In this document: positions 15,222-16,774 of the stretch, piece by piece
Layout of the letters: the number at the start of each line of letters is the position of its first letter
Numbering within the stretch: position 1 is the first letter of the stretch
Origin: an uncultured Spirochaetales bacterium
GTDB taxonomy: Bacteria > Spirochaetota > Spirochaetia > Sphaerochaetales > Sphaerochaetaceae
NCBI GenBank assembly: GCA_949285785.1
Contig: CASEAG010000002.1
Location: forward strand, 1-64,000
Direction of reading: 5' to 3'
Length of the DNA stretch: 64,000 nucleotides
Translations under genes and position numbers: made by a program
Notes under the pieces: generated by a model
The model's database searches: none
What the model was told of the DNA's origin: nothing
Seen by the model: only the letters and a program-made list of their open reading frames with translations

Positions 15222-15250
15222 TGGCTCGAAGGCGGCATCTGGTGTAGAAT
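15222..15250 (+). promoter_or_regulatory. Leaderless promoter of trmD
   Basis: TAGAAT at 15245-15250, then GTGCTTC (7 nt) and the GTG start. TGGCTC lies 17 nt upstream of the -10. GGCATCTGNTGTAGAAT also precedes the Bmp gene (21436-21452). Confidence 0.6.
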
Positions 15251-15257
15251 GTGCTTC

Positions 15258-16568
15258 GTGAAGCTGACTCTCCTCACCATATTCCCGCACTTGTTCGACA
15301 GCCTTCTGGCCAATCCTGTCATTGACAGGGCGATTCGCAACGGTCTCGTGGAGATCGATGTCGTCGATATCCGCAGCCACACGGACGGCTGCTTCCGTGC
15401 GATAGACGATTCGCCATATGGTGGCGGGGCGGGACTCCTGCTCAGAGTGGATGCCTTGAGCCGGGCCCTCGATGCCGTGCACGATCCGTCGTCCAGGACG
15501 ATTCTTCTGGGACCCAAGGGAAGGACGTTCACACAGGATATGGCGCATGAGCTTGCCCGTGAGGAACATGTCATTCTGGTAGCCGGGCATTACGAGGGGG
15601 TGGATGCACGGTTCATGAGCCGTGTCGACGATGAGGTGTCCATAGGCGACTACATCCTCACCGGTGGTGAAAGCGCCGCAACCGTCGTGGCTGAAGCCGT
15701 CATACGACTGCTCGATGGAGCACTTCGTGGAGAGTCGTCAATCGAGGAGAGCTTCGAGAACGGGCTGTTGGAGCATCCCCAGTACACGCATCCCGTGGAA
15801 TATGATGGCATGCGTGTCCCTGATGTGCTCATGAGCGGCGACAGGGAGGAAATCGCACGCTTCAATGAGCTCGAGTCAATCAAGGATACCATCAGGCTGA
15901 GGCCGGATCTCCTTCCTCGTGACCAGGAGTTCCGCTTCTTCTCGCTTCACAGGGACTACGGCTATGAGGCGAAGGTCATCAGCTGGCTGGGCGGAAGGAT
16001 CCCCGTCCCCACTGTCGTTCATGAGGAAGGGCGTTACCTCCTGCTTGACAGGTTGAAGGGCAGGAGGCTGAGAGGATCGTCCAGGAACAAGGTGCTTGGC
16101 ACCTGTGCACATGTCCTTGGAATGCTGTGGTCCATGGACACTTCCGGCTGTCCCTGCCTGAAGGATATCCAGTGCACGCTTGCAGACCTGAAGGGCCGTT
16201 CGATGTCATATGACCTGTGGTGCACAGTGGACAGACTTGAGAGGATGACTGTCGAAGAGGAACTGGTGTTCTCGCATGGTGCTCTCACGCTGGACAACAT
16301 CATCGTGAATGGAAACGGTCTTGTCGGCATACTTGATCTTCGCCAGGCCGGTCTTGCGGACCGCCACAGGGATCTTGCATCGATACTCGTCTCCCTTGAA
16401 GAGGAGGGGATCGACGGGCGCGATCTGATCGATATGCTGGAAGTCGAGATCGACGAAGAGAAGCTTGCGTATTTCACACAGCTGGGAAGACTGGAGAGAT
16501 CCCGGCTTCCGTCTGGCACTTCCTGCATATCGCTTTCGGGAAAGAAGAGATCCAGTAGCGAAGAATAG
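15258..16568 (+). CDS. trmD: tRNA (guanine37-N1)-methyltransferase fused to an APH-like pseudokinase domain
   Basis: A 436-residue protein; TrmD alone is usually 230-260. Residues 1-220 are a complete TrmD, with the SPOUT knot visible in L-L-G-P-K-G-R-T-F, A-G-H-Y-E-G-V-D and I-G-D-Y-I-L-T-G-G-E; it methylates G37 of tRNAs to prevent frameshifting. Residues about 235-400 resemble APH(3') phosphotransferases: W-L-G-G-R-I-P-V-P-T-V, H-G-A-L-T-L-D-N (340-347) and G-I-L-D-L-R-Q-A-G-L-A-D-R (357-369). The catalytic Asp of H-G-D is Ala342, while Asn347 and Asp360 keep the APH(3') spacings of 5 and 18. The beta strands and ATP-binding Lys of the N-lobe are absent. GTG 15258 follows a TAGAAT box by 7 nt. 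The domain's role is unknown; RNA or partner binding is possible. Confidence 0.88.
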   Translation: MKLTLLTIFPHLFDSLLANPVIDRAIRNGLVEIDVVDIRSHTDGCFRAIDDSPYGGGAGLLLRVDALSRALDAVHDPSSRTILLGPKGRTFTQDMAHELAREEHVILVAGHYEGVDARFMSRVDDEVSIGDYILTGGESAATVVAEAVIRLLDGALRGESSIEESFENGLLEHPQYTHPVEYDGMRVPDVLMSGDREEIARFNELESIKDTIRLRPDLLPRDQEFRFFSLHRDYGYEAKVISWLGGRIPVPTVVHEEGRYLLLDRLKGRRLRGSSRNKVLGTCAHVLGMLWSMDTSGCPCLKDIQCTLADLKGRSMSYDLWCTVDRLERMTVEEELVFSHGALTLDNIIVNGNGLVGILDLRQAGLADRHRDLASILVSLEEEGIDGRDLIDMLEVEIDEEKLAYFTQLGRLERSRLPSGTSCISLSGKKRSSSEE

Positions 16569-16683: not shown

Positions 16684-16689
16684 TCGATT

Positions 16690-16761
16690 TGGGCGGTATA
16701 GGGTTTGAACCTATGACTTCCACCACGTCAAGGTGGCACTCTCCCGCTGAGTTAACCGCCC
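16690..16761 (-). tRNA. tRNA-Val (GAC)
   Basis: A full cloverleaf on the minus strand: acceptor GGGCGGT/ACCGCCC, D arm ACTC/GAGT, anticodon stem CCACC/GGTGG with loop TTGACGT (anticodon GAC), T arm ATAGG-TTCAAAC-CCTAT. CCA is not encoded. A promoter of its own lies just upstream. Confidence 0.95.
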
Positions 16762-16774
16762 AGCGACTCTCTGC

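Follow-up and report, generated by a model that had tools for sequence, protein, structure and literature searches.

A paralogous TrmD fused to an APH(3')-derived pseudokinase in Sphaerochaetaceae, and its co-occurrence with G37 of tRNA-Val(GAC)

TrmD, the tRNA m1G37 methyltransferase, has been described as single copy, essential, and strict for G36-G37, and it is an antibacterial drug target. What purpose could a kinase-derived domain serve at the end of such an enzyme? The question is raised by the first 64,000 nucleotides of a contig from an uncultured Spirochaetales bacterium of the family Sphaerochaetaceae (here called the window). A single uninterrupted open reading frame (ORF) extends on its plus strand from a GTG at position 15258 to a stop at 16568 and encodes 436 amino acids with no internal stop; homologues occur in 10 other species. 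The original prediction interpreted it as a complete TrmD followed in frame by an aminoglycoside phosphotransferase (APH)-like domain, and the ORF, the family profiles, and the predicted fold all agree with this interpretation. As also predicted, a literature search turned up no account of such a TrmD. The architecture, a paralogous TrmD joined to a pseudokinase derived from APH(3'), is real, conserved, and apparently new to the literature.

The genome containing the window also has an ordinary trmD gene, encoding 242 amino acids, on another contig (C38) near rpsP and ffh, and an ordinary TrmD is likewise present in each of the 10 other genomes with the same fusion. This makes the fused gene a paralogue, designated TrmD2 below, and it sits outside the ribosomal-protein operon. 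The fusion as the cell's only TrmD was thereby ruled out. The original prediction had placed the kinase-derived domain on the essential enzyme, which proved incorrect: the domain is carried by a paralogue of patchy inheritance, in a cell that also has a normal TrmD. An assembly artefact or read-through was also ruled out, because the window's form (the pseudo-APH form) is common to 11 genomes of 11 species in two genera (g1 and g16), and the extension is thus not unique to this assembly.

The TrmD part comprises residues 1 to 220 (positions 15258 to 15917, plus strand), as delimited by profiles, alignment, and fold. It scored above the equivalog cutoffs of both TrmD models (254.8 bits against a cutoff of 220 for NF000648 and 246.6 bits against 195 for TIGR00088). 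Its fold aligned with Pseudomonas aeruginosa TrmD (PDB 6joe) over 215 residues (Z, 23.0), with the SPOUT trefoil knot and the TrmD C-terminal domain both present. Published TrmD structures assign the reading of G36 to Asp50, catalysis at G37 to Arg154 and Asp169, and contact with the D stem to Ser198-Gly199-x-His201 (PMC5372744, PMC9508554). The window protein retains D50, G59, R150 (equivalent to Arg154), and E164 (equivalent to Asp169). In the alignment, Asp50, Gly59, Arg154, and Asp/Glu169 were invariant across the 11 pseudo-APH homologues, and Asp50, Asp51, Gly59, Arg154, and Glu/Asp169 were unchanged in every TrmD2. Upstream of the gene, a putative promoter, the -10-like box TAGAAT (15245 to 15250, plus strand), ends 7 nt 5' of the start codon and has an identical position in genomes G008, G079, G081, and G102. 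No Shine-Dalgarno sequence was seen upstream of the start, and the mRNA is possibly leaderless. In three species, a gene for an MTA/SAH nucleosidase, which would clear the methyltransferase by-product, lies immediately upstream of the fusion gene (G012, at L034:8609-9313; G009; and G001). The window's protein had no match to a defence system.

The APH(3')-derived domain spans residues ~230 to 413 (15945 to 16496, plus strand) according to profiles and fold. Residues ~230 to 410 matched the Pfam APH family (PF01636; E value, 2.6e-12), with scores of 93.7 to 96.9 bits for the APH(3') model NF033068, under its equivalog cutoff of 205 bits. The sequence match to the solved APH(3')-IIIa begins at residue 51/52 of the latter (E value, 3.7e-13). 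The predicted model aligned with the APH(3')-IIIa structure 3q2j over 208 residues (Z, 20.9; 29% identity), and the APH part had pLDDT values of 94 to 98 in a deeper model made with a 35-row alignment, which confirms the kinase-derived fold. The N-lobe had been described as missing, and this is correct for beta1 to beta3, the ATP loop, and the nucleotide-binding Lys; the retained part nevertheless starts at helix alphaC, and residues ~237 to 264 form alphaC and beta4-beta5 ahead of the C-lobe. Residues 413 to 436 (16494 to 16565, plus strand) form a C-terminal tail that alignment and structure prediction place only in the window's protein, and it is predicted to be disordered (pLDDT below 50 at residues 419 to 436).

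Where a kinase has HGD, the window protein has H340-G341-A342 (16275 to 16283, plus strand). The predicted replacement of the catalytic Asp by Ala342 is thus correct, and the Asp is absent from all 11 homologues, which have A, S, K, N, or R at this position. Asn347 and Asp360 stand at the positions originally given, but the hint that the metal ligands are preserved does not extend to the relatives, in which these positions are N/S/H/R and D/G/N, respectively. Because neither residue is conserved, the domain is, as judged from its sequence, a true pseudokinase, with ATP-binding, metal-binding, and catalytic residues lost in the pseudo-APH clade. The reading frame is nonetheless intact in all 11 homologues, and pairwise dN/dS values of 0.14 to 0.36 for the APH part and 0.08 to 0.23 for the TrmD part (with dS saturated in the more distant pairs) show that both halves are under purifying selection. 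The best-conserved APH positions group at SHG.L.L, NGNG, and AG.A.R.RD. Most members have a mildly acidic APH part, without an obvious RNA-binding surface.

TrmD2 was found in 31 of 139 genomes of the family, in several states that go beyond the original prediction. Two members of genus g8, G022 (L040:9255-10772) and G156 (L088:9807-11210), encode a TrmD2 with a complete APH part (Lys, HGD, N+5, and D+18). The APH part of G156 scored above the APH(3') equivalog cutoff (216.8 versus 205 bits), and this protein may combine a working aminoglycoside kinase with a tRNA methyltransferase. Four further g8 genomes (G157, G158, G151, and G160) keep the Lys, HGD, N, and D and have most substrate-binding helices deleted (L089:960-2180, L090:8827-10047, L091:9936-11153, and L093:3183-4109); these forms could possibly be kinases with a different target. 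Thirteen genomes have a TrmD2 without any APH part, and the TrmD2 gene of G159 is interrupted by a contig end. No fused relative was detected in 395 genomes of the class outside the family, and no full-length fusion was detected among plasmids, phages, and viral contigs. Phage records, including OR847215.1, OR848630.1, and ON470592.1, do carry trmD; in ON470592.1, rimM adjoins trmD as on bacterial chromosomes, and such records look like host DNA.

Phylogenetic analysis placed TrmD2, including the unfused and kinase-complete members, in a single clade apart from all canonical TrmD (support, 100/98), within which the pseudo-APH forms were also a single clade (100/100). Unfused TrmD2 proteins were nested among the g8 fusions (95/81 and 99/91), which would make the fusion ancestral; a single clade of fusions was not rejected by the AU test (p = 0.23). 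On a species tree of seven proteins, the distribution of TrmD2 needs 18 changes, indicating that it has often been lost and/or transferred. Four related g16 genomes carry, in one conserved neighborhood, chromosomal APH(3')-like genes that stand alone and have intact motifs (L306:1498-2286, L308:1495-2283, L309:1492-2280, and L310:1492-2271). The standalone APH(3') genes of G067, G068, G094, and G095 were ruled out as the donor because they failed to cluster with the fused kinases.

The residues that contact the D stem provide a clue about the added domain. The Ser-Gly-Asn/Asp/His-His motif is absent from the window protein, which has SGDR instead of SGNH at residues 193 to 196. In Haemophilus influenzae TrmD, His201 reads the D-stem pair G10:C25 (PMC5372744). 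This residue was replaced in every one of the 17 aligned sequences from the fused lineages (16 with a demonstrated fusion, plus G159, which is cut by the contig end). Among unfused TrmD2 sequences, 11 of 12 retain it, as do all 14 canonical TrmD sequences. Trp207 and Arg208 were additionally replaced in all 11 pseudo-APH forms. The loss of His201 is the best evidence tying the extra domain to tRNA binding, as a correlation rather than a proof.

A candidate tRNA lies next to the gene. A tRNA-Val(GAC) gene with the anticodon loop TTGACGT (C36, G37) is encoded at positions 16689 to 16762 on the minus strand, convergent with the fusion gene and 120 bp past its stop. In 10 of the 11 pseudo-APH loci, this tRNA gene is 0.06 to 3 kb from the fusion, across several different gene neighborhoods. 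Among the 45 tRNAs of the window's genome, it alone has G37 without a preceding G36. Across the 139 family genomes, a complete tRNA-Val(GAC) had G37 in all 25 cases in which TrmD2 was present; in the 82 cases without TrmD2, it had G37 in 19 and A37 in 63 (the full sequence was read for 20 of the 63 A37 genes). Two 3' fragments, in G067 (G37) and G081 (A37), were excluded from these counts. The association was strong in a Fisher test that ignores the kinship of the genomes (p = 8e-13), and comparison of independent pairs gave about five in the same direction and none in the opposite direction (sign test, p of ~0.06). The unfused and g8 members had no linkage to the tRNA, yet G37 was present wherever their tRNA-Val(GAC) was found. 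In G006 (97% complete), which has an unfused TrmD2, neither a tRNA-Val(GAC) nor any other odd G37 tRNA was found, and its sister G003, also with an unfused TrmD2, probably has no tRNA-Val(GAC). Phylogeny thus confounds the association, and there is a counterexample to it. Coevolution of TrmD2 with the A10-U25 pair of tRNA-Val(GAC) was ruled out as a discriminator, because this pair is nearly family-wide regardless of TrmD2.

Our main reading, to which we assign a probability of roughly 0.4, is that TrmD2 is a dedicated m1G37 methyltransferase for tRNA-Val(GAC) in which the dead kinase domain helps to hold the tRNA. Some Sphaerochaetaceae, gut spirochaetes included, would accordingly possess a second, specialized enzyme beside the normal TrmD. 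With the catalytic pocket intact, the TrmD part would be expected to bind AdoMet and to transfer its methyl group to N1 of G37. The C-terminal part, descended from an APH(3')-type kinase and apparently kept as a folded, noncatalytic domain, would bind or position the tRNA and so compensate for the altered motif that reads the D stem. The likeliest special substrate, as suggested by co-occurrence and gene linkage, would be the tRNA-Val(GAC) with C36-G37. TrmD requires G36-G37, and its linker helix stays disordered with a G36C tRNA (PMC5372744, PMC9508554). Because of this requirement, the C36-G37 tRNA-Val should escape canonical TrmD and would profit from an altered enzyme. Several observations argue against this reading: Asp50, the reader of G36, is conserved in TrmD2 despite the proposed C36; 19 genomes have a G37 tRNA-Val(GAC) without TrmD2; G006 and probably G003 have TrmD2 without this tRNA; the phylogenetically controlled sign test gives a p of only ~0.06; and the mild acidity of the APH part does not suggest RNA binding. 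The stronger claim, that a TrmD-family enzyme switched its specificity to C36-G37 in this one tRNA while a resistance-type kinase domain became a tRNA-holding module, seems doubtful to us. Of the roles originally suggested for the fusion, tRNA recognition has gained support from the His201 loss and from the linkage to and co-occurrence with tRNA-Val; control and localization of methylation have gained none.

The linkage could instead stem from mobile elements, because tRNA-Val(GAC) seems to be a hotspot for integration in the family: att-like 3' fragments of it occur elsewhere in the genomes of G081, G097, G087, G074, and G100 (L378, L379, L394, L403, and L404), and an integrase-like gene adjoins it in G012 (L034:11278-12513). 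TrmD2 would then be a redundant m1G37 methyltransferase carried by elements that integrate at this tRNA. The APH remnant would be a decaying partner needed only for solubility or folding, and hitchhiking would account for the G37 link. The patchy presence of TrmD2, with its 18 changes, fits this explanation, as does the faster evolution of the APH part (mean identity of 52%, compared with 73% for the TrmD part). We regard it as unlikely, given that selection has kept both parts, that the fusion gene is free of flanking att fragments at all 11 loci, and that the unlinked unfused and g8 members also accompany G37. No trmD2 remnant was seen beside tRNA-Val in the TrmD2-negative genomes G010, G014, G091, and G105.

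Three further explanations appear less probable still. Pseudokinases are frequently allosteric modules, and the domain might be a sensor whose ligand (a nucleotide, an aminoglycoside-like molecule, or a protein) switches G37 methylation. The HG.L.L and AG.A.R.RD surfaces are indeed its most conserved parts; however, the ATP loop, Lys, and catalytic Asp are gone, as are both metal ligands in most members, and the substrate-binding insert is ~20 residues shorter, so that we give a sensor little credence. That TrmD2-APH was originally a bifunctional aminoglycoside resistance protein, combining RNA methylation with drug phosphorylation and now degenerate or repurposed in the window, is suggested by the complete kinase motifs of G022 and G156 and by the score of the latter. 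This origin is improbable, since the kinase cannot work in the pseudo-APH clade, the target of TrmD is tRNA rather than the aminoglycoside target sites, and no aph gene adjoins an unfused TrmD2. Lastly, the replacement of the D-stem readers His201, Trp207, and Arg208 in pseudo-APH members could mean that TrmD2 methylates another RNA (another tRNA position, rRNA, or mRNA). Asp50, Arg154, Glu/Asp169, and the rest of the G37 pocket are fully conserved, which, together with the association with G37 of tRNA-Val, makes this a slim prospect.

Because TrmD2 combines a retained pocket with a missing D-stem contact and an extra arm of kinase origin, it is a natural test of what determines TrmD specificity. 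One family contains members with a complete kinase, without the substrate lobe, headless, and unfused, and together they are an unusually full record of the passage from a resistance-type enzyme to a noncatalytic domain. If the tRNA-Val link is true, enzyme and tRNA would be a dedicated pair that is probably spreading between genomes.

Among known systems, TrmD itself (TIGR00088/NF000648; PDB 1uak, 4yvg, and 6joe) resembles the window protein in fold, equivalog scores, and catalytic residues. The window gene differs in being a second copy outside the ribosomal-protein operon, with the three D-stem residues replaced and an APH-like domain of ~190 residues where the usual C-terminal helices stand. 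The APH(3') phosphotransferases, of which APH(3')-IIIa (PDB 1j7i and 3q2j) is the closest, have the same fold between alphaC and the final helix; the window domain is without beta1 to beta3, the nucleotide-binding Lys, and the catalytic Asp, its metal ligands are unconserved, and its substrate lobe is shortened. TrmD-Tm1570 (TrmD-COG4752) fusions, such as that of Calditerrivibrio nitroreducens (PDB 8b1n), likewise carry an extra C-terminal domain on one chain with TrmD, and there the partner is a second SPOUT methyltransferase (PMC11187310, PMC1829167). In contrast, the second domain of the window protein is a dead kinase (PF01636) rather than a SPOUT domain (PF09936), and it belongs to a paralogous enzyme. 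A precedent for considering APH-related proteins alongside pseudokinases comes from bacterial spore kinases such as CotI/YtaA (PMC2860764); these are spore-coat proteins without a methyltransferase domain, which sets them apart from the TrmD2 fusion.
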